From Bolinopsis microptera (Eukaryota > Ctenophora > Tentaculata > Lobata > Bolinopsidae), in the NCBI RefSeq assembly GCF_026151205.1, contig NC_087073.1:21418837-21482836 (forward strand): a DNA stretch of 64,000 bases. The letters run 5' to 3'. How positions within the stretch are numbered: the stretch's first letter is position 1; each line of letters starts with the position of its first letter. Of the stretch, positions 6,309-59,103 are shown piece after piece. The position numbers and the translations under genes were made by a program. Under the pieces are notes generated by a model. The model was not told the origin of the DNA. It did not search any database and saw nothing but the letters and a program-made list of their open reading frames with translations.

Positions 6309-6746
6309 TGTACCCTAACACTTAACAGTAAGTACACACCGTGTAGTTGAAGGTGTACCCTAACAGTAAGTACACACCGTGTAGTTGAAGGTGTACCCTA
6401 ACAGTAAGTACACACCGTGTAGTTGAAGGTGTACCCTAACAGTAAGTACACACCGTGTAGTTGAAGGTGTACCCTAACGATAAGTACACACCGTGTAGTT
6501 GAAGGTGTACCCTAACAGTAAGTACACACCGTGTAGTTGAAGGTGTACCCTAACAGTAAGTACACACCGTGTAGTTGAAGGTGTACCCTAACAGTAAGTA
6601 CACACCGTGTAGTTGAAGGTGTACCCTAACAGTAAGTACACACCGTGTAGTTGAAGGTGTACCCTAACACTTAACAGTAAGTACACACCGTGTAGTTGAA
6701 GGTGTACCCTAACAGTAAGTACACACCGTGTAGTTGAAGGTGTACC
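6309..6746. repeat. 38-bp minisatellite, 11 copies
   Basis: Eleven copies of a 38-bp unit made of ACCCTAACAGTAAGTACACA followed by CCGTGTAGTTGAAGGTGT. Copies 1 and 10 share a 7-bp insertion (ACTTAAC), and one copy has CGATAAG in place of CAGTAAG. GTGTAC and GTACAC in the unit are inverted relative to each other and could form a small stem. The CCCTAA core resembles a telomeric hexamer but occurs once per unit. Confidence 0.95.
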
Positions 6747-25163: not shown

Positions 25164-28100
25164 TTAATTCCATTTGGAGGTAGAACCTTGGGTAGGTTTA
25201 CTCGCAGAGGGTTTACGCGAACCAGCAGGACCAGCCGATGGCTTACGAACTGTGCTTGGGGATACTTTTCCAGCAGGACCAGCCGATGGTTTACGCAATG
25301 TGCTAGGAGATACCTTGCCAGCAGGACCAGCCGATGGTTTACGCAATGTGCTAGGAGATACTTTTCCAGCAGGACCAGCCGATGGTTTACGCAATGTGCT
25401 CGGGGATACCTTGCCAGCAGGGCCAGCCGATGGTTTACGCAATGTGCTAGGAGATACTTTGCCAGCAGGACCAGCCGATGGTTTACGCAATGTGCTAGGA
25501 GATACTTTTCCAGCAGGACCAGCCGATGGTTTACGCAATGTGCTCGGGGATGCTCCTGATGGCTTTCGGGGCCCTGTAACGGGAGCTTGTGGTTGGGATG
25601 GTTTGCGTGCTGGTACTTTACCACCCTGTTGTTGTAAAGTGCCGCGCACAGTGCTGGGAGATCCCGTTCCTTTCACAACTGGTTTGATGAACTTTCCAGG
25701 GGGAATAACGGCGCCAGTAGGTCGACGCTCCTTCACTACACGCCCTGCCGACTTGTTTGCTGGTATCCTAGCCTGAAATTAAGAGTATGAAAATAACATG
25801 TACTGGCTAAAGCTGTAGCGATAGATGTGAAGTAGATTATAGATATGTGTGATATAACAGAATTTCGAAAAACAAACCGGTCCTGTAGTTTTATGAAGAA
25901 CTTTTTTGCGATCTGTGTTCGCTATTACATCTATAGAAGTTCTCTTTGCTTGCGCAGTTTTTGCCTGAATAGTACTAGTTAAGCCAAGAAATTTTCATAT
26001 TTAAAACTAATGAAGTTACATCAGCCAAATTGTAGCTGAAGCACCTTCTAATAAAGTTTAGTATCTGTATAATAGTAGTCAATTAAATTAGACCAAACTC
26101 CTTTAAGTCAAGCGAGGCTTCCGAAAAAGAAGACGAATAACTACACTATAACCACATACATCGTGCTTGGTGTCAGTAAGATACGTTGTATCAGCATTGT
26201 CCAGCACCTCCTTCCTTTTGCCATAGTCGTTTATCTTGTCAATAGTGTCCACTCGTGCTCGGTCGAACTCGTCATTCTTCCTCTCCTCGTCTCTTAGCTT
26301 CTCTACTTCCTTACCCTTCACTTTGTGCACCATGGTATCCTGAAAATAATACCGAGTACTAAATTTATTAGTTATTCTAGATCACTCACAACGTGCAACA
26401 CGTTTAACCTGTGTGATTAGACAGCGGGCAACTCACTGAGACTGTGTTAATGAAACCTCGCGAACGCTTGGTCACTTAATTGAAAGTAACGCATAGTTAC
26501 CAAATTTACCATGTCATTTCAGAACGTTTCATTAACTTCGAGACAGCTTCAGCTGCATTTTAAAAGTGTTGATGGTAGAACATGGAGAGTGGACAGCGGT
26601 AAAATATCTGTGTATTTAGCTCCCTTCTTTGTTAAACTATTTCAAGCAGTTTACTGGTTTTAAACCCATGAAATGGCCGAACAGATTAAACGATCGTTTA
26701 AACTATAGCCATCTTACTGTATATAAAGCGATACGATATATATTATATATAGGCGTGACAAACTAAACGGTGTTGTCGCCCAACTAAATGTTTCATGTGG
26801 ATGGAACTCTTCGGAAAAATAAAGAAATTCTGGTAGGATATTTTTCGACAGAATGAGTTCGTAAATCAGTGTTAATATTCGATGATTTGGCTACATCGTG
26901 TAATCTTTGATATATCAGTCATATTATTAAACATAATATATATTATAGATACCAATCTCACAGAGTTTACGTATAGCTACAGGGCGAGGTCATGCTCTTG
27001 AATCTCAATCATTATTAAATAATGAATTTCCTATGTCAAAGCGGCTCTACAAAGTCCAAAAACAAAGACTCTAATATTATAAAGGTATCTACTTTCTCTT
27101 CTCCAAGGAGCATAAAATCGACACAATTATTTTTACAGCTAAATAGACAAGGGCTAGGATTACTGTTGATAATCAAGTTCCAGAGTATACTCATAGTATA
27201 TATACTCTTAGTAGTAGTACTGATATCAAGCTATTAATTTCATAGTCAAATGTTCTGAGCATAACGTTCAATATATAATATAATATTCAAATATATAATA
27301 TAATATTCAAATATAATATTATATTTACAGTCTAGTCACGGAGTTACATGGTGATCAAATAGCACTACATTTGACGTATTTCGGTTTTAAAAGTAGTTTA
27401 CTTGATCAACGATCACTCAAATCGGGCGTTTTAGGGTCAAATAAAGTAGTACTTAAAGAACTTACAAGTATAAAGTAGTTATTTAAGTTATTTAAGTTAA
27501 ATAAGTTAAAGAACTTACAAGTACTACACTCATCCTACTTAAAGAACTTACAAGTACTACACTCATCCTACTTAAATAACTTACAAGTACTACACTGATC
27601 CTACTAATAGAACTTACAAGTACTACACTCATCCTGTCCTTACACTTCCTCTCCTCCGCCGCCACCTTGCGCTCCTTCTCTCCGGTGTTCCTTGCCATGC
27701 TTACCATCAGCTCACTGTGGACGATAGACTTCTTACGGTTATTCTCTGCTATCTGGGAGATAAGAGTCACATATTACTCGGATATATACACATATTATAC
27801 ACATATATTATATACCGATCAGGTAAGTCATTATAAATGATTTGTCTGCTGGATGAATTATGTTGATGACACAGATTGGAGTAAGATATTTATCATACTT
27901 AGTAAGAACAAGGATATTATATGCTTAATACTGATAATTGGTATGGGGTAAAACAGAATTCAAAGATAGTTACGCGTACGATAGGATGATATTTAAAATG
28001 ATTGTATAATATGTAATTACTTACATTTTCCATGTTAGATTTAAAAGCATCGCTTCCCTTCTTACAACTGCGACCAATCTTTCCAGCACCCTTCAATAAT

Positions 28101-43431: not shown

Positions 43432-46400
43432 ATGCGAATTTCTATCGGAACTTTGATTGGGATATGTGCGCTGGTCCAGGTGTCCGAAGGAGCTGTAATC
43501 GATGTGCCAACTAGAGGTGAACGTGATACAGTTGATGGCCCCTGGGATAATGTAAGTGTTGGGCTCATCAATTAAAGTGAACCAGTGAACCTCTGATCTT
43601 ACGTAATTCATTAATGTGGGGCTGCTGTTTGATTCAAGATTAAATAAATTAAAGTTTAATCTATTTAGTAGTTTCACGACTAATAGTATAAGAACCTGTA
43701 TTAGTAATACAGGTTCTAATTGGTGTTGACTCTGTATCGTATTTTAACGTGGGTATGTTCGTTAACAATCCTCATCATCTCAGCTGCTCAGGTGACCAAA
43801 TACGGTGTCCACTATCAGTATCATAGCCACAAAACAATTGTTACGAACTGTATTTCTACGTTTGTTGCTGAGGGTCATTTGAAATGTGGACCATAGCGTT
43901 GAGATGACTTTTTTCGTTACTTATCAAGTTGGTTGAATACCAAGGCTCGACCGGAACCGCTTTTTTTGGCCGGGACCGGGATTGGGACTGGTAAAAAGCG
44001 CCGGGACTAAACCGGGAACGGGATTTTTGGGTTTTATAAATTAAAGTTGCTTTAAAAAATCATTTTAACCAGCATGTTAATTAACAAGAGCCAGAATCGA
44101 CCCTCGCTGAAACTTGATCAGATGTTACAAAACTTGACCAAATGATACAGAAATTGATCTTTGTTAGTTTTTACTCTGATCTCAAAAAATGAACGATAGT
44201 TCTGCTTCACAAAATGGTACTCCTTCCTTCCTTAAGTACACTTACGAGGTTCATGAATTTGCTTATGAATTTGCTTATGAATTTGCTTGATATATTTTAT
44301 ATAAATGGATCGTTTCCTGAAATTTCCCCTCGATTGCTGAGTACCCAGTCCAAGCCATCTATAAAACGGTTCGATATTTCAAATGAATAGATAAAGTTAA
44401 ATATCTAATAAATATTTGACAAAAATCATCCTCCCAAATATAATACAAATTCCAGCTTCGTGCCGGCCAAATTGACGAATTTTGAACGGGACCGGGATTC
44501 CAAATAAAAGCTGATTTTGACCGGGACTGGGACTAAAGTGTGATTCCGGTCGAGAACAAATACAGTGAAACTTAAATTCCTAGACCAGTTTCAGTCCGAA
44601 AAAATCACTGTTCAAGTGTGGTTATTTAACAAATTTTAAAAACAAGGCTAAATGCGAAACTTAGTACCGTATTACATTTATAAATTTCCCTAAGATTAGC
44701 TTATCTGGAGTTTGATTTTTCAGTTTATGGTTTAATTGATCTTAACTAATTTTGAAAAATAAAGGAAAATGCAGAAAAGAGCTAAGATAGGACTTGCTGT
44801 TGCAGTTGGTGTTTGTGCAGCAATTGCCCTTATTGTGATTGTAGTTGTTTCCACGGGTAAAAAAGGAGATGACCAGATAGATCCGGGACCTTTGGACGGA
44901 CCCTGGGATAATGTAAGTTGGGAAATACAAATTAGAATATGCCAAATTCCAATTCTGACTTTATATACTTTTTGTGAAATTGCATGACATGATCATTATT
45001 ATTCTGAAGGAATTTATAATTATTATCTCACTGTCGCCCAGAGGCAACATGTTGGTGCGGTAAAAAACACCGCAATTAAGTTGAACAATTCACCAACAAT
45101 TACACGATTGTTGTGTTTAACACGAAAATTAACTTAAAATGTGTCTTATGTAGTGTCTTATAATTGAGCTGGCGATGGGCATAATTTACGTATAGTCTTC
45201 AACATTATAACTTTATAACTATACAACATTGTAACCCATTGTGTGTATGTACCAAAGTGACTATATTTCAATCTGTTTAGGGATTGCGAACAAACTTAGT
45301 AGTTCGATTCTGCAGTACGCACCCGCTGTCGACGATAAACTTATATTTTAAATTAATTTGTAGTTTAGCACTTAGTAGTGTCGTGTAATAATTGGAATGG
45401 CTGTTGTGGGGGTTTGTACACTGATATTTGTAGCTGTGATCATATCAGTGACTACATCAGTAGAGGTCGACCCTGGGCCCCTTGATGGGCCTTGGGATAA
45501 CGTGAGTTCGGCATTATATGAAACCGTTACCATAGTTACCATGACACCGTTACCAAGGGCACAAATTGTGAATACATTTGGGTCTTTCCACTTGTTGTTG
45601 TTTTCATGATTTATGTTGAAATATAATGATACGTGTCATAATAATTGGAATTATTGTTTTTTAAAGATTAATTATGAACAATGAACAAGAGATCATTTCG
45701 CCTGACACTCTTAGTTGTCGGATATTATACAATTATTTAAACTTGAAGTACTGCGAAAAGTTTGAAACACATCATGATACTTGTTTGTTGATCTTCTCTT
45801 TTATTTTATTCAATTAAACGTATGAAATTTCAGATCCGGCTGCCAGAAAACATAGCAGCCAAAGCGTACACAATGACTCTCAACATTAATTGGGGGACCA
45901 TGAATTATACTGGTGTACAGGAGGTAATTAATCCTTATTATTTAATTGCGAGATGTAATACTGTAAGAGTAGTGATGTAAGAGAATGACACAGACTATTC
46001 GTTAATAATTTGTCTCGAAAATATTCAGATTAGCTGTTACCAGTATGTAAGGTTCCACATTGTAACTTCCTCACTTTCTACCAGGTGACAATGGAAGTAA
46101 CGGGTGATGACACCAAGTATTTCCTGATTCACACCAGTGGTCTGGTAATCGACAAGACAGCTACCACACTCCACAAGGTTGTGGGGGATGTTGTCACTGA
46201 CCTCGACATCAAACGCACATTCATGTTAGTTAACGCCTGATAAGCTATAATTCCCAAAACTAGCCGTAAATTCTTATAAGTCACATATTATCGAATAAGA
46301 TTTAAGTGAATGACTTACAGGGACACTGAGAAGAAGGCAGAACTGAGACATGATTTCTATGTTGTCGAGAGTACTGACGCTGTAACTGCTGGCACTTACA

Positions 46401-49400
46401 AAATGATAATATCCTTTGCTGGACAGGTACTTACCAAGCATATTGTCATAATTTAACTATCCATCAAATGTTTTCAAGATCGATATTTTTACTTATCAGT
46501 GTTTCTAAATCCAAACTCTCTTTTTTTCTTCAATTAAGATGAGGGCCATCGCTCGAAATTGTTGAGATTTATAATTCTCCGCTCGTACGGTTGCCTTGAC
46601 ATCAGATAACAGGTTAATTCTAACTGATTAATTAGGTGCAAACAGAGAAACTGACTGGAATATACAGAAGCAAATACATTCGTAAATACCAAGACGACAC
46701 TGAAGTACCAATGTGAGTTTAACCTGTAAACTGTCATATTGTACTTATAATTTGTCTTTAAAATTAAATTAAATAAAATCGATGAAAGTAAAACTTTTAT
46801 TGGCTGGTAATATTTAAAATGTATCTTTTCTTGTAGCGTCACATTTATGTTTCAGATACCAGATCTCGACTGATTTCGAACCTGTGGATGCTCGTACTGC
46901 GTTCCCCTGCTTTGACGAGCCCGCTCAGAAAGCTAACTGGACTACTAGTGTAAGTTTTAGCTAGAAAATTGTCCTTTTTAATGTTCGCATTATCTAATTT
47001 TGGATGCCAATTACCAATTAAACATTATTTCTGTGCAAACTAATATTTGAACAAACGATTATTTCAGATAAAAGTTACATTTCCGCCTGGTATTGATATC
47101 AACGAGTACAACATCCTTAGTAACATGCCGCTGAAAGAAGCACCAACTAAAGAGAATCAAATAATATCAGCAAAGTTCAAGGTTTCAACTTTCAGTTTCA
47201 TAAACGAAATAAACACGCCTCACAAGATTCAACTACTTTTACGATTATTGTTTTATCGATTAATTTACATTACTTTCTGCCCTAGGAGAGCGTTCCGATG
47301 AGTACATATCTGGTTTGTTTTGCTGTCTCAGATTTCATATTCAAGGAGGCAGTGCACACTCGCGCTGATGGGTCTACTGTACTTGTAAGTACTGTTTATA
47401 TATCAATTATGTCAATTAATATGTTTTCAGTAAATTATCATCTTGCGTTTTATCCATATCATTTTAAATCTCAATTCCTTAAAATTGTGTAAATCTCAGA
47501 TGCGAGTTCACGCCAGAAGAGAACCAGAGTTCCAGGCCTCTGCTTCATATGCTCTACAAGTTACACCTGCAATCATCAAAGAATACGAGAAGTTTTACAA
47601 AGTCAATTATCCTCTCGAAAAATTAGGTAATGCTCAAAAATATTTGCCAAATTTTGTCAGAGGGAAAATATCAACTGAACCAACAATAATGTTTCAATCG
47701 AAGACTTAAAAGATTCCATTAGTTTTTTCTATGTTTAAACTTCGAGTAGTCAAAGATAAAATTGGCTCTTATCAAATTAATCGTCAATGAAATAGAAGTT
47801 ATACTGGGGGGGGGGGGGGTCCAACTACATTAATGTACATCGCCATCAGATTTTTGCCAAATGTACGCTAAATTAGTGTACAAAAATGTAGTTGGACCCC
47901 CCCCCCCCCCTTATACTAATCTAACCAACATCGTATCTCAGACCAGATCGCTCTGCCGGAATTCAACTCAGGAGCGATGGAGAACTGGGGTTTAATAACT
48001 TACAGAGAGAGCTCCCTACTCTACAACCCTGTAACCAGCTCTACCGCGGAGAAACAGCGGGTCTGCTCCGTCATCGCTCACGAGGTCGCTCATCAGGTAA
48101 CATATCTAGATAACTCTGTTAGTGTTAATAATGATACTATTGGGACTATTTCTAATTTGTTAGGACATGTTATGCGGGGTCCTGTTGAATGTTGATGGAC
48201 CAGCGTTTTCTTGCCTCATTTTTGCCATCAATACCATGGACTTACCAGGGAGAAGAGGAAGACCCCAAAGCAATCTATTCTCGCTGATTGTGCATGATTT
48301 ATGTAAAAGAAATCTTTCTATGAATAATATTTTTAATCTGTATTATCTCCGTAATTTAGCTATGAGAAAAGATGTTGGCAGAAATTACGATGAAGTTTTG
48401 ATATTTAGTTATTTGTTTTAGGGAAAGATTACACTTGGGCGTTGTTTTTAACTATCCTTTGTTTAGAACTTTTGTTTAATAATTATGTTTAAATTTCGGA
48501 ATGTATAATTTTTACTTAAACTTTGTACCGTAAATAATACACATCCTTCTTCCCAGATATTCTCGTATATATTTTCAGTGGTAAATGGTAACCTAGTGAC
48601 AATGTGTATATTTTCAGTGGTTTAGTAACCTAGTGACAATGTGAATATTTTCAGTGGTTTGGTAACCTAGTGACAACGTGTATATTTTCAGTGGTTTGGT
48701 AACCTAGTGACAATGTGTATATTTTCAGTGGTTTGGTAACCTAGTGACAATGTGTATATTTTCAGTGGTTTGGTAACCTAGTGACAATGTGTATATTTTC
48801 AGTGGTTTAGTAACCTAGTGACAATGTATATATTTTCAGTGGTTTGGTAACCTAGTGACAATGTGTATATTTTCAGTGCAAGTGGTTTGGTAACCTAGTG
48901 ACAATGTGTATATTTTCAGTGGTTTGGTAACCTAGTGACGATGGCCTGGTGGAACGACCTGTGGTTGAACGAAGGGTTCGCTTCATTCGTTGAGTACTAT
49001 GGTATTGACGCGGCTGAACCTACGTGGAATATTGTGAGCTATTTTTATTCGCTAAATTTATCAATCTAAGATTATTTATTTATTTTATTTATTTAAAGTT
49101 TAGTAAACTATCGTTATATAATTTTAATTTCAGTTGGACTTTTTCTACCCGGATGAAGTGACGACAGCAATGAATTTCGACAGTTCCCCTAGCTCCCATC
49201 CCATCTCAGTTCAAGTCTCTTCTCCAGAAGAACTCAGCGGTCTTTTCGACACCATCTCCTACAGAAAGGTTTTGTTTTGCACAACTGGGACTGTTTTCCT
49301 TGCAATTCATTTATAGATTTTCCGATATTTATAGATTTTCCGTTATTTATAGATTTTCCAGTCTTCACCTAAAATAGCTACTATTTCACATGCGTTCATC

Positions 49401-52400
49401 ACCTAAATATCATTGTTAACATATTTGCAGGGCTCGTCAATCAACTGGATGATGCAGAAGTTTATGGGCGATGAAAACTTCGCAACAGGCTTAGAAAACT
49501 ATATAGCCACAAACAAATATGGGAACGCGTACATGGTGGATCTTTTTGATGCTCTCAACCCGGTAAGTGAGCCCCCCCCCCCCCCCCCCCCCCCGGCCAA
49601 ACCCCCCCCCCCCCCCCCCCCCCTGAAATTATCTCCTAAAGACTAAACAATTGCTTGTTTGGCAAAGAGCCATTATGATTAAAACATGATATCGTTTTGT
49701 ACGAATTGAAGTATAATTGTTAAGTTTTATAGGAATGTGTTGTTTGCTAAGTCTCCCACTACCTATACTTTACGGTCCTCAGGCTTATGGTGGAGTGAAC
49801 GTTACGAAGGTTATGTTAACGTGGACCCTCCAGATGGGTTTCCCTTATGTAACTGCAGCCCTGGATACCACTACTACTCCAGGATCTACCATCATCACCC
49901 TCGAACAGAATAGGTACCTTTTCTGAGTCTGCTAAAATGCTTTGTAACGTTAACAGCAGCTATACTTATAGTTGGTACAGACTGATTGCAGATTTAGTAT
50001 GCTCCTTTGTTTTCCCTCTCCTGTGTGAACTGTGGAATGTGGATAAAATGCTACCTTTAGTTACACTTGTTAAGATATTTGTGTTATCAGGTTTTTAGTA
50101 GGAGATGCAAAGGAGGATGACACTTCTGAGTTTGGTTACAAGTGGCACATTCCATTCTCCTACGTATACAAAGTCAAAGATGGAGCTGTTGAGACAGGCG
50201 TAACCCACTGGCTCATGGCTGATGATGAAAGCTGTGAGTTCTTGTCAGATAATTTTAGAGACTTTGTATCAAGATATTTAAAAGATGTGATGGTTGGATA
50301 TATTTATATATTAAATATATTTATAAAAGCAACAATGCAGACTATCTTCTTCCTGCATATCTGGTATAATTAACTAACTGAAATTATTCTTTTATCAGCT
50401 AAAACAATAACTGTTGAGAAAGAACTAGAATGGATCAAAGGAAACGCTGACGGTAACTTTTACTATCTGTCAAACTATGAGGAGGCTACATGGACAGCTC
50501 TTGCTTCTGCTCTTCAAAATGGGGAGCTTACTTCAGCCACTGACAAAACGTCTCTTGTTTACGACGTTTTCCGGCTAGCTGAGTAAGTTAAGGAGCCGCG
50601 TCTTATCATACCTCGCTAAAAATCAGCTTTTAATACTAAGTTTTATAGAATAATGAAATCAATAACATCAAAACTTAGCAAAAGTAGTACATCAAAACTT
50701 TGTCCAGGACGGCTAAAGTGGCTTACAGTAAAGCTTTAGATATGACGAAGTACGCTAAAGCTGAATCAGAGTATGTCGTTTTATCCCGTATTCTGAGCGA
50801 GGTTCTTACTGCTGGTGATGGAGTAAGAAGCGACGAAACTGCTTACACCGAATTATGGGTCAGTTTATTAACGCTTTCACTTTCACTTTCACTTTCACTT
50901 TCCACCCTCTTCACAATCGTTTTGTTTTTGTGAACTTAATATTGTCTTTGCTCACTTTAATTTTTTAAAAGTTATAAATTGTCAGAAATATGTAGCTGCA
51001 ATGTTAAAGCCGCGAGTTGAGGACATGACATGGGACCCTAAAATTGACAACGAACCAATAACCTCTCCAAAAATGAGAGACATGGCGCTCAGAAACTATT
51101 GCAGGTTTGTTTTTCTACCTCTTATTGAAACTATCTTTTCTTTGGCAGGCCTGATCTTTTTGCTTTGTTTCATTTGTTTTTACCTCGTCAATGCAACACT
51201 AGGCAACAATGAATGGCAACTTGGCAACAATGAATTACTGCTGTCAACTCAATAGGTTCAATAGGTAGAAGTATTTTAAGATTATCAACTGCTACAGGGC
51301 TGTTAAAGATAAATCTGACGCTTATGTAGTAGAAGCCCTGAATAAGTTTACGGAGTTTGCGAAGGATCCGGCTGGAAAGAAATCCGGAATAAAAGACGTG
51401 TTCACAACCGTCATGCGAACTGCTATAATATACGACGACACTGAGAACACTAATTGGCACAAGATGTGGAAACTTCTACAGGTCAGCTTCCCGAGTTCCA
51501 ATCAGCAGAGTGGTCAACAATTTCCAATTTTAGTACACTGATTGATATTGAGAGGACTATAATGTGATTGTGTATTATATTTCAAATTTGAGTACACTGA
51601 TTGATATTAAGAGGACTATAATGTGATTGTGTTTATATTTCAAATTTTCAGGACTCTGATTGGGAAGCAGATCAGAGGATTTACATCGCCGCTTTAGCGC
51701 GATCATCTAACACAACTGTTTTAAGACAGTAAGTAATCATTTTTCCATTAAAATTAACTCTAAAGATAGTTTGATATAGTTGAAATGTTTATTTTACCGA
51801 AAGTAGATGCCAATCTTGTAAATTGTTTGCTTTGCAGGATGATCGAAGATTCCTTCTCCGAAGACGCTAAAGCAGGAACTTGGCGATATCTGTACTATGT
51901 TAGTTACCATGGAGATAACTACGACCTTGCCTGGGAACTGCTACAGTCCAGATGGGACGAATATGCTGTGCAGTGAGTCAATAACATTATCTTACTACAG
52001 ACTTACTTTAATGTAATAACATTAGTGCGTGATCCTTTTTTTCGTCCAATTTTACTGTAATGAACATTTCTACTTATTTAATCGTAAAATAATATTTAAT
52101 TAACAGGTACAACACCACCTCATTTACTATGGGGTACCTTGTTCAGATACCTGAGGTCTTTGATACGCAGGAAATGTACGATGAGGTATGTAAACATGGC
52201 ATAATGGTAACGCTCTGTTTTAACTCCGCCTCATCATGGACAATTAAATGGTTATAATCAATCAGTGTTATCGAATAATTAATTGATGAATATTGTCAAT
52301 ATCGAACTAACTTAATTCAGGTGAAAAAGTTCTTCGACGGGAAAGAAAGTAACATCGGCACTGGAAAGAAGACAGTCGAGGAAACTCTTGCTAAGATCAA

Positions 52401-52473
52401 ATCTAACATCAAATGGAAAAAGGAACATTTTGAAAGCGTCAAGACATGGTTTACGGACTTGGGAAGCAAATAA
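43432..52473 (+). CDS. M1-family aminopeptidase (aminopeptidase N-like)
   Basis: A zinc aminopeptidase of about 950 residues. First exon 43432-43551 or alternatives 44769-44912 or 45397-45501, then 22 common exons: 45834-45923, 46085-46224, 46321-46426, 46636-46712, 46856-46949, 47068-47181, 47286-47384, 47500-47626, 47942-48096, 48920-49033, 49134-49268, 49431-49562, 49783-49913, 50091-50233, 50399-50582, 50708-50858, 50986-51104, 51298-51481, 51652-51728, 51838-51972, 52107-52185, 52321-52473. All phases agree. The exopeptidase motif GAMEN is in [16 protein letters not shown]. The zinc site is HEVAH, then 18 residues, then the Glu of WLNEGFASF, split by intron 48097-48919. [11 protein letters not shown] and [12 protein letters not shown] are further landmarks, and the ERAP1-like C-terminal half is present. 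The 43432 form starts with a signal peptide, so it is secreted or lumenal. Confidence 0.95.
43691..43717. repeat. 27-bp palindrome in aminopeptidase intron 1
   Basis: AGAACCTGTATTA and its exact reverse complement flank a single G. Confidence 0.9.
43946..44554. mobile_element. Candidate TIR element rich in GGGACCGGGA blocks
   Basis: Starts CTCGACCGGAACC and ends with the reverse complement of CTCGACCGGAATC. Both ends carry GGGACCGGGA or GGGACTGGGAC blocks in inverted arrangement around an AT-rich centre. No clear target duplication. It lies between alternative first exons 1a and 1b of the aminopeptidase. Confidence 0.6.
44769..44912 (+). CDS. Aminopeptidase alternative first exon 1b (membrane anchor)
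   Basis: 48 codons in phase 0: [20 protein letters not shown], then LIVIVVVST and a short linker ending [10 protein letters not shown] before a GTAAGT donor. A basic N-terminus followed by about 22 hydrophobic residues fits a type II signal anchor. It would replace the secretory first exon and give a membrane-bound enzyme. Its end matches those of the other two first exons. Confidence 0.85.
45397..45501 (+). CDS. Aminopeptidase alternative first exon 1c
   Basis: 35 codons in phase 0: [18 protein letters not shown], then [17 protein letters not shown] before a GTGAGT donor. The hydrophobic start could be a signal peptide or an anchor. It joins exon 45834 in the same phase as 1a and 1b. Confidence 0.82.
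47806..47910. mobile_element. 105-bp MITE with G-run terminal inverted repeats
   Basis: A G-run (47806-47819) then TCCAACTACATTAATGTACA at the left, and TGTACAAAAATGTAGTTGGA then a C-run (47897-47910) at the right. Perfect 7-bp target duplication TTATACT (47799-47805, 47911-47917). It sits in an aminopeptidase intron just before the GAMEN exon. Confidence 0.92.
48150..48430 (+). mobile_element. LINE C-terminal scrap in aminopeptidase intron 10
   Basis: Two plus-strand frames read [12 protein letters not shown] and then [29 protein letters not shown], the LGHVxR...GRRGRPQ...DL ending typical of LINE proteins. One frameshift separates them. Similar to the scrap at 32374-32568. Confidence 0.72.
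48565..48942 (+). repeat. Ten-copy splice-acceptor array (37-bp unit) in the aminopeptidase
   Basis: Each unit holds TATATTTTCAG followed by TGGTTTGGTAACCTAGTGAC and AATGTG. AGs end at 48578, 48617, 48654, 48691, 48728, 48765, 48802, 48839, 48876 and 48919; only the last leads into the rest of the exon (ATGGCCTGGTGGAACGACC). The unit is thus the intron end plus the first 23-24 nt of exon 48920-49033. Copy 1 is divergent and copy 9 has a 6-bp insertion (TGCAAG). From an upstream AG the frame runs into TGGTAA in the next copy. Confidence 0.95.
49572..49623. repeat. Two C-runs beside an aminopeptidase donor site
   Basis: C-runs of 23 and 22 bases are separated by GGCCAAA and start nine bases after the GTAAGT donor of exon 49431-49562. 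Run lengths are likely to vary or be misassembled. Confidence 0.9.
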
Positions 52474-54159: not shown

Positions 54160-57100
54160 GGGGGGATCATGTTTTTTGTCCGTTCGGTACCCTATATTTT
54201 CAAAACGGAAAAAAATAGAGCGGATAAAAACGGACAAAAACGGACAAAAACGGACAAAAACGGGAAAAAATAACAAAAATGGAAATAACATTTAGATGCT
54301 TCCTCCTCCTCTTCCTCCTCCTCTTCCTCCTCCTCCTCAGTCCTCCTCAGTCATCCTCCTCAGTCCTCCTCCTCCTCCTCTTCCTCCTTCTCTCCCTCAG
54401 TCCTTCTCCTCCTCCTTCTCCTCTTCAGTCTTCCTCCTCCTCCTCCTCCCTCTCAGTACTCCTCCAGCTTCCTAAATCATCCTCCTCAGTCATCCTCCTC
54501 AGTCCTACTCCTCCTCCCCCTCCTCCTCAGTCCTCCTCAGTCCTCCTCCTCTTCATCCTCCTCCTCTTCATCCTCCTCCTCTTCCTCCTCAGTCCTCCTC
54601 CTCAGTCCTCTTCCTCATCCTTCTCCTTAATTCTCCTCCTCCTCAGTCCTCCTCAGTCCTCCTCCTCTTCAGTCCTCCCCCAGTCCCCCTCCTCCTCCTA
54701 TTCAGTCCTCCTCCTCTCTAGTTCTCCTCAGTCCTCCTCCTTCTAAGTCGTCCTCAGTCCTCCTCCTCAGTCCTCCTCCTCCCCCTCTGTTCTCCTCCTG
54801 GGACCTCCTCCGATCATTATTTGTCCTCCTCCTTCTCCTTCTCCTCCTCAGTCATTCTCCTCCTCGTCCTCTTCCTCCTTCTCAGTCCTCCTACTTCTCC
54901 TCCTCCTCCTCCCTCTCAGTCATCCTCCTCAGCCATCCTCCTCAGTCCTCCTCCTCATCCTTCTCCTTAGTCCTCCTCCTCCTCATTCCTCCTCAATCCT
55001 CCTCCTCAGTCCTCCCCCAGTCCCCCTCCTCCTCATCCTATTCAGTCCACCTCCTCCTCTTCAGTTCTCCTCAGTCCTCCTCCTTCTCAGTCCTCCTCCT
55101 CCTCCTCCTCCTCCTCCTCAGTCCTCCTACTTCTCCTCCTCCTCCTCCCTCTCAGTCATCCTCCTCAGCCATCCTCCTCAGTCCTCCTCCTCCTCCTCCT
55201 CAGTCATCCTCCTCAGCCATCCTCCTCCTCCCAGTCCTCTTCCTCAGTCCTCCTCCTCCTCCTCCTGGGTCCTGCTTCTCCTCCTCCTCATCCTCCTCCT
55301 CCTCATCCTCTTCCCCCTCCTCCTCCTCCTCCTCCTCATCCTCATCCTCCTCCTCCTCTTCCTCCTCCTCCTCAGTCATCCTCCTCAGCCATCCTCCTCA
55401 GCCATCCTCCTCCTCCTCCTGGGTCCTCCTCCTGGGTCCTCCTCCTCCTCCTGGGTCTTACTCCTGGGTCATCCTGATCCTCCTCAGTCCTCTTCCTCCT
55501 CCCGTCCTCAGTCCTCCTCCTACTCCTACTCCTCATCCATCCTCCTCATCAGTCCTCCTCCTCCTCCTCCCCATCAGTCCTCTTCCTCCTCAGTCCTCCT
55601 CATCAGTCCTTCTCCTCCTGGGTCCTCCTCCTGGGGCCTTTTCCTGGGTCCTCCTCCTGGGTCCTCCTCCTCCTCCTCCTTCTCCTCCTCAGTCCTTCTC
55701 CTCCTCATCCTCCTCCTCCTCCTCCACCCTCATCCTCCCCCCAGTCATCTTTATCCTCCTCGTCAGTCCTCCTTCTCCTCCTGGGTCCTCCTCCTGGGTC
55801 ATATTCTCCTCCTGGGTCATTTTCTCCTCCTGGGTCCTTCTCCTCCTCCTCCTCAGTCTTCCTCCTCCTCCTCAGTCCTCTTCCTCCTCATCCTCAGTTA
55901 TCCTCCTCCTGGGTCATGGGTCCACTTCCTCCCTCTCCTCCTCAGTCCTCCTCCTTCTCCTCACCAGTCCTCCTCCTCAGTCCTCCTCATCCTCCTCATC
56001 CTCCTCATCCACATCCTTCTCCTCTTCATCAGTCCTCCTCCTCCTCGTCCTCCTCAGTCCTCCTCATCAGTCCTCATCAGTCCTCCTCCTCCCCAGTCCT
56101 CCTCCTTCTGGGGCCTTTTCCTTGTCCTCCTCCTGGGTCTTCCTCCTACCAGTCCTCTTCCTCAGTCCTCCTCCTCCTCCTCCTGGGTCCTGCTTCTCCT
56201 CCTCAGTCCCCCTCCTCCTCCTCAGTCCTCCCCCCAGTCACCCTTCTTCTCATCCTCATCCTCCTCCTCAGTCCTCCTCATCCTCCTCATCCACATCCTT
56301 CTCCTCTTCATCAGTCCTCCTCCTCCTCGTCCTCCTCAGTCCTCCTCATCAGTCCTCATCAGTCCTCCTCCTCCCCTGGGTCTTACTCCTGGGTCATCCT
56401 GATCCTCCTCAGTCCTCTTCCTCCTCCCGTCCTCAGTCCTCCTCCTACTCCTACTCCTCATCCATCCTCCTCATCAGTCCTCCTCCTCCTCCTCCCCATC
56501 AGTCCTCTTCCTCCTCAGTCCTCCTCATCAGTCCTTCTCCTCCTGGGTCCTCCTCCTGGGGCCTTTTCCTGGGTCCTCCTCCTGGGTCCTCCTCCTCCTC
56601 CTCCTTCTCCTCCTCAGTCCTTCTCCTCCTCATCCTCCTCCTCCTCCTCCACCCTCATCCTCCCCCCAGTCATCTTTATCCTCCTCGTCAGTCCTCCTTC
56701 TCCTCCTGGGTCCTCCTCCTGGGTCATATTCTCCTCCTGGGTCATTTTCTCCTCCTGGGTCCTTCTCCTCCTCCTCCTCAGTCTTCCTCCTCCTCCTCAG
56801 TCCTCTTCCTCCTCATCCTCAGTTATCCTCCTCCTGGGTCATGGGTCCACTTCCTCCCTCTCCTCCTCAGTCCTCCTCCTTCTCCTCACCAGTCCTCCTC
56901 CTCAGTCCTCCTCATCCTCCTCATCCTCCTCATCCACATCCTTCTCCTCTTCATCAGTCCTCCTCCTCCTCGTCCTCCTCAGTCCTCCTCATCAGTCCTC
57001 ATCAGTCCTCCTCCTCCCCAGTCCTCCTCCTTCTGGGGCCTTTTCCTTGTCCTCCTCCTGGGTCTTCCTCCTACCAGTCCTCTTCCTCAGTCCTCCTCCT

Positions 57101-59103
57101 CCTCCTCCTGGGTCCTGCTTCTCCTCCTCAGTCCCCCTCCTCCTCCTCAGTCCTCCCCCCAGTCACCCTTCTTCTCATCCTCATCCTCCTCCTCAGTCCT
57201 CCTCATCCTCCTCATCCACATCCTTCTCCTCTTCATCAGTCCTCCTCCTCCTCGTCCTCCTCAGTCCTCCTCATCAGTCCTCATCAGTCCTCCTCCTCCC
57301 CAGTCCTCCTCCTTCTGGGGCCTTTTCCTTGGTCCTCCTCCTGGGTCTTCCTCCTACCAGTCCTCTTCCTCAGTCCTCCTCCTCCTCCTCCTGGGTCCTG
57401 CTTCTCCTCCTCAGTCCCCCTCCTCCTCCTCAGTCCTCCCCCCAGTCACCCTTCTTCTCATCCTCATCCTCCTCCTCAGTCCTCCTCATCCTCCTCATCC
57501 ACCTCCTTCTCCTCCTCATCAGTCCTCCTCCTCAGTCCTCCTCCTCCTCGTCGTCCTCAGTCCTCCTCATCAGTCCTCATCAGTTCTCCTCCTCCCCAGT
57601 CCTCCTCCTCCTCCTGGGGCCTTTTCTTGGGTCCTCCTCCTGGGTCCTCCTCCTTCCAGTCCTCCTCATCGTCCTCCTCCTCAGTCCTTCTCTTCTTCCT
57701 CCTCCTCCTCAGTCCTCCTCCTCCTCCTCAGTCCTCCACCAGTCACCCTCATCCTCCCCCCAGTCATCTTTATCCTCCTCATCAGTCCTCCTTCTCCTCC
57801 TCAGTCCTCCTCCTCCTCCTGGGCCTCCTTCTCCTCCTGGGTCCTTCTCCCCCTCCTCCTCAGTCCTCCTCCTCATCAGTCCTTCTCCTCAGTCATCCTC
57901 TTCCTGGGTCCTCCTCCTCCTGGGTCCTCCTCCTCCACTTCATAAATCCTCCTCCTCATGGGTCCTCCTCCTCCTTCGCCTCCTCAGTCCTTCTCCTCCT
58001 CCTCCTCAGTCCTCCTTCTTCTCCTCTTCCTGCTTCATCTTCCTCCTTCACCTCCTTCTCCTCATCATTCCTCCTCCTCAGTCTTCATCCGCCTCCCCTT
58101 CTCCTCCTCAGTCCCCCTCTTCAGTCCTCTTCCTCCTCAGTCCTCCTCCTCCTTCTCCTCAGTCCTCCTCAGTCCTACTCCTCCTCCTGCTCTGTCGTCC
58201 TCAGTCCTCCTCCTTCTCCTCCTCCTCAGTCCTCCTCATCCTTCTCCTCAGTCCTCCTCCTCCTCCGTCCTCCTCCTCCTCCTCCTTCTATTCAGTCATC
58301 CTCAGTTCTCCTCAGTCCTCCTTCTCAGTCCTCCTCCTCCTCCTCCTCAGTCATCCTCCTCCTCTGGCCTCCTCCTCCTCCTCAGTCCTCCTCCTCCTAC
58401 TCCTCATCAGTCTTCCTTCTCCTCATCCTCCTCAGTCCTCCTTTTTCTCCTCCTATTCAGTCCTCCTCCTCAGTTCGCCTCCTCATTCTTACTCCTCCTC
58501 AGCCCCCCTCCTCCTCCTCAGCCCCCTCCTCAGTCCCCTCCTCAGTCCCCATCGTCAGTCACCCCTCCTCAGTCCCCCTCATCCTCTTCCTCTCTTTTAT
58601 CTCTCAATAATTTGTTCAATCTATAATTATTGTTGGTGTTATTGTTTACACAATTTATTGTTATACTATTACTAAAATGTTTTTAACGCATTTGAGTCTG
58701 ACTCAAAATGTGCTCAAGAATCTTTTGGTTTAACAGAGTTTTACTCTCCAGTAATATTGAATATGGAAAAGTTGTTGCATGATATTTTTCATAAATAAAT
58801 TGATTTTCATTCCTTATTAAAAAATGTGTAGACTATCCTTAGTATAGTCTTAGTATAGTACCTAATTGAGGATTAAAAGTTTGAGAAAGGACCATGGTCA
58901 TTAACCGGGCTACCCATTTCTGCAAATATCCTGTTACAAATTGTGGATAAAATTTAAATCAAAAGTTACAATTTTTGTCCGTTTTTGTCCGATTTTGTCC
59001 GATTTTGTCCGTTTTTGTCCGTTTTTGTCCGTTCGGTACCCTATTTTCTGAAAACGGACAAAATTGAACGGACAAAAACGGACAAAAATAACATGATCCC
59101 CCC
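54160..59103. mobile_element. 4.9-kb element with G-run terminal inverted repeats
   Basis: Left end GGGGGGATCATGTTTTTTGT; right end is the reverse complement of GGGGGGATCATGTTATTTTT. Both are followed inward by TTCGGTACCCTAT and by runs of the 10-bp motif ACGGACAAAA (inverted at the right end). TATAGTG flanks both sides (54152-54158, 59104-59110), a 7-bp target duplication. Between the TIR regions lies only the 4.3-kb pyrimidine repeat and about 350 bp of AT-rich DNA; there is no transposase. Confidence 0.82.
54290..58600 (+). repeat. 4.3-kb pyrimidine-rich repeat (CTC/TCC with CAG)
   Basis: Almost pure C/T on the plus strand, built from CCTCCTCCTCAGTCCTCCT-like units with occasional CTGGGTCCT. 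A 925-bp higher-order duplication is visible: 55451 matches 56376, 55921 matches 56846 and 56110 matches 57035; a further 282-bp shift links 57035 to 57317. Long open frames across it (up to 919 codons of S, P and L) are low-complexity artefacts. Confidence 0.96.

Follow-up and report, generated by a model that had tools for sequence, protein, structure and literature searches.

How can a coding exon that is preceded by ten almost identical 3' splice sites be joined correctly to the exon before it? The question is raised by a gene in a 64,000-nt stretch of Bolinopsis microptera DNA, which was analysed as a whole and is called the window below. Splicing its 23 exons (Table 1) gave a single open reading frame of 947 amino acids, identical (100%) over its whole length to the RefSeq protein "glutamyl aminopeptidase-like isoform X3" (P0001), which, like RefSeq protein models in general, is a prediction. 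The closest relative in the PDB was the glutamyl aminopeptidase 4kx7 (2.8e-135, residues 30-944), and a protein of Mnemiopsis was 78% identical. The spliced product carries GAMENWG and HEVAHQ...LWLNEGF in one open frame, and its HEVAH-(18)-E spacing, counted on the sequence, is unbroken. We take the HExxH-(18)-E zinc site together with GAMEN to be the motifs of M1 zinc aminopeptidases. Intron 10, with its donor GT at 48097, is the longest of the 22 introns of the gene, the shortest being 96 nt. A first-pass annotation, made from the sequence alone, had placed an array of acceptors between HEVAHQ and the third zinc ligand, and the end of exon 10 and the start of exon 11 in the spliced protein bear this position out.

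Table 1. Positions of the aminopeptidase gene, its acceptor array, and related arrays in the window and elsewhere in the genome.
Feature	Position	Strand	Remarks
M1 zinc aminopeptidase gene (glutamyl aminopeptidase-like)	45397..52473	+	23 coding exons, isoform X3
Exon 10	47942..48096	+	terminates in HEVAHQ, two zinc ligands
Intron 10	48097..48919	+	823 nt, array at 3' end
Tandem array, 37-nt unit, ~10 copies	48568..48943	+	from TRF, AG list and copy comparison
Nine upstream acceptor copies	48568..48906	+	AGs ending 48578 ... 48876, premature stop from all
Tenth, last acceptor	48907..48919	+	sole one yielding the enzyme
Exon 11	48920..49033	+	carries third zinc ligand
Second tandem duplication, 59 nt x 2.4	51520..51662	+	across exon 20 acceptor, junction 51651/51652
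Donor array, gene LOC134811769	27506..27635	-	four tandem 5' splice sites, 33 nt, in frame; exon 27618-27752
TSP1/SRCR locus	C2:1041719		3 acceptors, 45 nt apart, in frame, no stop
Kelch/attractin-like gene	C1:15756547	-	11 acceptors, 27 or 28 nt apart, before kelch exon
OTUD7-like gene	C2:15154766	-	13 acceptors, exactly 53 nt apart
MFS transporter gene	C3:10522204-10525882		76 TTTCAG sites, 68/75 intervals exactly 47 nt

The array at the end of intron 10 is real. TRF reported a period of 37, 9.9 copies, 92% matches and a score of 631, values that fall within the usual description of a minisatellite (tandem units of 10-100 nt with high identity). The ten TTTTCAG acceptors have the G of their AG at 48578, 48617, 48654, 48691, 48728, 48765, 48802, 48839, 48876, and 48919, and they are spaced by 39 nt, then seven times by 37 nt, then by 43 nt. 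The earlier description of a mostly 37-nt spacing (seven of the nine intervals are exact) and of a unit length that is not a multiple of three thus stands. Each unit consists of approximately 13 nt of intron end and 24 nt of exon start. The intron-like 13 nt show three substitutions in 130 sites and the TTTTCAG part none in 70; with so few changes overall, the conservation of TTTTCAG is no proof that the AG is under selection. Deviations from the common unit occur in the exon-like part of copies 1, 2, 3, 7, and 9; copy 10, which is the real exon, reads GACGATG. Two statements of the first-pass annotation hold in part. Every copy was said to share the same junction sequence, which is true of TTTTCAG (ten of ten copies), but only five of the ten have the full 19-mer TATATTTTCAGTGGTTTGG without a change; GTGTAT was said to follow each copy, and as read off the sequence it follows seven of the nine upstream copies but is missing after two. 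When a 32-nt probe over the last acceptor was compared with intron 10, the score was 64, while the best of 200 shuffles reached 27. The duplication therefore crosses the acceptor of exon 11, as it does in intron gain by boundary duplication.

Joining exon 10 to the upstream AGs led to a stop codon in nine of nine cases, as would be expected of poison splice sites, where the alternative sites bring a premature stop. The prediction that upstream choices end inside the zinc-binding motif was thereby confirmed, although the route proposed for it, through TGGTAA, is not the only one, copy 2 ending at ATG-TGA instead. Only the last AG was productive, as had been proposed: its reading frame is intact through the 23 exons, and the product in RefSeq X3 is exactly the last-acceptor sequence, without an insert. 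This protein, a predicted model, is in line with the suggested polarisation of the choice to the 3'-most site. No truncated Bolinopsis form was found among the representatives of the protein database; the five matches at E ≤1e-60 included none that was Bolinopsis by name, and the database is clustered, which could hide a minor or truncated isoform.

On balance, we think it probable that a minisatellite was born across the intron 10/exon 11 boundary, that the last acceptor is chosen from the exon side, and that the leakage to other sites decays. A tandem duplication would have taken in about 13 nt of the intron and 24 nt of the exon, and the duplicated unit would then have expanded to about ten copies, with the ancestral intron kept before the first copy and the ancestral exon kept after the last copy only. 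In the enzyme mRNA, exon 10 would be joined to the last, exon-proximal acceptor, turning the nine upstream copies intronic. The choice could be made by exon definition, in which the acceptor nearest to the donor at 49034 would pair with it across the 114-nt exon, after the 823-nt intron. Any residual use of upstream acceptors would give premature stops and nonsense-mediated decay, and such arrays would be tolerated since the exon-proximal site suffices. With regard to decay as a shelter for weak new splice sites, PMC2809761 was considered. Among the points against the favoured reading is that the upstream decoys are nearly identical to the acceptor taken to be used.

Folding, site strength and branch-point words all fail to single out the last acceptor. 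RNA structure was rejected as the means of selection. Only one of 100 dinucleotide shuffles folds as well as the array (z -3.3), but among 150 shuffled units, each in nine tandem copies, 22 equal the real unit in nine copies, and no last copy stands out: TTTTCAG has a mean unpaired probability of 0.47 in copy 9 and of 0.31-0.37 in the nine others. A stronger last site found no support from a small matrix built on the 21 other acceptors of the gene, in which the last acceptor scored 1.93, the same as five other copies, the remaining copies scoring 0.93 (one), 1.96 (one), and 6.71 (two); with n=21 this matrix is overfitted. Branch-point words were not enriched upstream of the 21 acceptors (CTRAY 5 against 4.1 expected, YTNAY 34 against 31.3, TAAY 20 against 18.8), and so do not point to the copies that carry a branch point. 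YTNAY is absent within 60 nt of the last acceptor, as it is in three of the 21 other introns. Outside copies 3-8, the laxer NTNAY occurs, with its A at -27 and -19, in copies 2, 9, and 10.

In the available part of PMC9225289, which is not ctenophore work, acceptors separated by 20 nt or more are usually chosen individually in the first step, and the upstream acceptor is preferred in general, which counts against the favoured reading, with a weaker preference under exon definition. According to the same text, exon definition is mimicked where the upstream intron is long and the downstream one short, and the exon-nearest site is then favoured. Exon 11 is a 114-nt exon with an 823-nt intron before it and a 100-nt intron after it. 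An exon-side choice is favoured here because these lengths suit the geometry described in that part of PMC9225289, where calling 823 nt "long" is our own judgement. Mnemiopsis is listed in the available part of PMC6142364 among the non-bilaterians with higher exon skipping.

Related duplications are present in the same window. With a probe over each acceptor and the preceding intron as the target, a junction-spanning upstream copy exceeded all 200 shuffles at two of the 22 acceptors of the aminopeptidase gene (exons 11 and 20), and none of the 22 donors did so against the following intron. The exon 20 duplication is more diverged, the contexts of its upstream AGs differ from that of the used AG, and we regard it as older than the ten-copy array. 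On the opposite strand, the donor array of the neighbouring gene LOC134811769, which had no Pfam match, is the mirror geometry of the acceptor array: each unit combines 18 nt from the end of the exon with 15 nt from the start of the intron and contains CTT|GTAAGT. The RefSeq protein P0126 (LOC134811769 isoform X2) and two related proteins have no insert at this position, which fits a putative use of the exon-proximal donor. An intact protein needs the last acceptor in the aminopeptidase gene and, in its mirror counterpart, the first donor; in these two genes the annotated proteins agree. Intact downstream coding is also expected from survivorship alone. Elsewhere in LOC134811769 (25164-25778, minus strand), a 48-nt in-frame coding repeat of PSAGPAG units has seven units in the window and five in P0126, hinting at length variation or at differences between models. 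A 38-nt array of 11 copies, nearly all with GTAAGT, lies at 6323-6746; as a second donor array it was not supported, there being no coding exon beside it by eye.

The genome was scanned with the pattern TTTTCAG-N20..50-TTTTCAG-N20..50-TTTTCAG, which gave 1077 matches in total. The loci listed cover approximately 59.8 of 264.65 million bases and, by our own grouping, make up at least 22 distinct loci, all of which were viewed. Among the 22 loci listed, five, the aminopeptidase array included, are placed where a coding exon has its 3' splice site. The exon of the TSP1/SRCR locus matches Pfam TSP_1 (3e-15), an SRCR domain is also present (4.5e-9), and both upstream sites are open. In the kelch gene, ten of ten upstream sites lead to a stop; the kelch exon by itself had no match, and two kelch exons joined by eye matched an attractin/LZTR1 propeller at 6e-8, which is under Pfam's curated score. 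One of the 12 upstream sites of the OTUD7-like array is open. The first exon of this gene alone had no match and Pfam OTU reached just E 0.3 with the exon and the next one joined, and the case rests on PDB matches, which extend across the join (OTUD7B, 5lrw, 1.8e-12). The MFS array, in an intron of about 5.2 kb by our own reading of the donor, has one open site among 75 upstream. Its joined exons matched MFS_1 at 9.6e-6 (under the curated score), the exon alone at 7e-3 and the upstream exon alone not at all; in the PDB, the join found only SPNS2 (0.07). The array units of different genes look unrelated, and for this reason the arrays probably arose separately.

For the other 17 of the 22 loci listed, no acceptor role was shown. 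By eye, some lie next to coding stretches or antisense to them, two are dispersed copies that do not stand in tandem, and the rest have no clear coding exon after them. The two dispersed stretches matched by the pattern, C2:14067300-14068900 and C2:17830000-17831600, are closely similar and, judged by eye, probably represent a mobile element.

Such arrays are probably not directed to splice sites. In the two modelled genes of the window, three of nine arrays contain a junction, where 3.4 would be expected under random placement, the junctions of the minus-strand gene being approximate in this comparison. As junction-spanning arrays occur at the random frequency, the ordinary birth of minisatellites is enough to account for them. 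The genome scan gave 599+478 matches against 101+94 for the reversed pattern, and, with the array left aside, the two strands of the window contain TTTTCAG 17 times and its reverse 8 times. Large satellites and the commonness of TTTTCAG inflate this pattern excess, and targeting of splice sites was rejected as its explanation. The recurrence of this kind of array in other genes shifts the weight from a special control of the enzyme to a by-product of minisatellites. In a broader form, which we put forward only tentatively and regard as somewhat doubtful, arrays of ten to approximately 76 acceptors might be a recurrent, unselected product of this genome, resolved by exon-side choice, with array length acting as a heritable dial on the productive transcript in many genes.

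The alternative that survives best, although we consider it unlikely, is a splicing rheostat in which ten near-equal acceptors are in competition, unproductive transcripts that decay form the majority, and the copy number sets the amount of enzyme. The first-pass annotation had likewise raised unproductive splicing as a control of the enzyme level, and on this the results lean neither way. The shared TTTTCAG of all ten sites speaks for it, as do the stops at all nine upstream sites, after which twelve introns still follow. A premature stop with introns downstream is a classic substrate of nonsense-mediated decay. The kelch array behaves likewise at all its upstream sites. On the other hand, stop-making is not a feature common to these arrays, as the TSP1/SRCR acceptors are in frame without a stop and the LOC134811769 donors are in frame too, and the arrays in the two window genes meet junctions no more often than random placement would have them do. 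We find it harder still to credit that the ten copies stem from an assembly artefact, or represent a private allele of the animal that was sequenced. A single assembly was examined, tandem arrays are prone to assembly errors, and the differing PSAGPAG counts of the neighbouring gene suggest that repeat length may vary between sources; however, the copies differ by point changes and indels, which plain read duplication is not expected to produce, and the same anatomy is seen in several unrelated genes. Finally, the first-pass proposal that the copies act as 23-nt micro-exons is highly improbable, and so is a role as stepwise (recursive) splice points: the units do contain the donor-like words GTAACC and GTGTAT, introns skipping one or more AGs would be longer, and the potato RdRp gene gained an intron by such a boundary duplication (available part of PMC4974935), but the next AG is only 14 nt from GTGTAT and 30 nt from GTAACC, below the shortest intron of the gene, a single 23-nt insert shifts the frame, and the RefSeq product contains none.

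Returning to a minisatellite born across the boundary with exon-side choice of the last acceptor, its parts are familiar, whereas the copy number and the recurrence are not. Tandem duplication of an intron-exon boundary is known as a route of intron gain from the potato RdRp gene (2016, PMC4974935). As far as the available text of that paper goes, the duplication took in the intron end, the acceptor and the exon start, as in Bolinopsis, but it was a single duplication that created a new intron with both acceptors in use, whereas the Bolinopsis arrays have 3 to 76 copies, the intact product needs the last acceptor alone, and the other copies are intronic. NAGNAG and longer-spaced tandem 3' splice sites likewise offer one exon a succession of acceptors. 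Those at most 9 nt apart are described in the available part of PMC9225289 as second-step choices, while the 3-76 repeated sites of the Bolinopsis arrays, 27-53 nt apart, would be separate first-step choices by the rule given there. With minisatellites (VNTR) the arrays share head-to-tail units of 27-59 nt and, mostly, little divergence; they differ from ordinary ones in that the unit straddles a splice junction and every unit contains a splice signal. Tandem repeats are reported to be enriched near intron-exon junctions in plants and green algae (PMC3887541), and units that copy the junction are not described in the available part of that paper. Literature listings from an open-licence library showed no earlier report of multi-copy acceptor arrays. 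How one acceptor is picked from several equal ones has long been asked, and the usual material for such studies is a pair of competing sites. Here a single genome offers a natural series of 3, 10, 11, 13, and approximately 76 near-identical acceptors together with a four-donor series, and these loci are thus a natural test of how one splice site is chosen among many copies.

Some further features were seen in and around the aminopeptidase gene. There are three candidate first exons (43432-43551, 44769-44912, and 45397-45501), each of which, by eye, has an ATG with a hydrophobic stretch and ends in DGPWDN followed by a GT donor; they resemble alternative starts that would provide the protein with different anchors or signals at its N-terminus. 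The third is used by RefSeq X3, and a related protein (P0002) starts like the second, again by eye. Intron 9 contains an inverted repeat with poly-G and poly-C ends (47800-47911) that by eye is like a small inverted-repeat element, and part of intron 10 (48160-48330) resembles, by eye, a decayed retroelement tail. Downstream of the gene, a TCC-rich repeat of approximately 4.3 kb containing CTCAG extends from 54301 to 58592.
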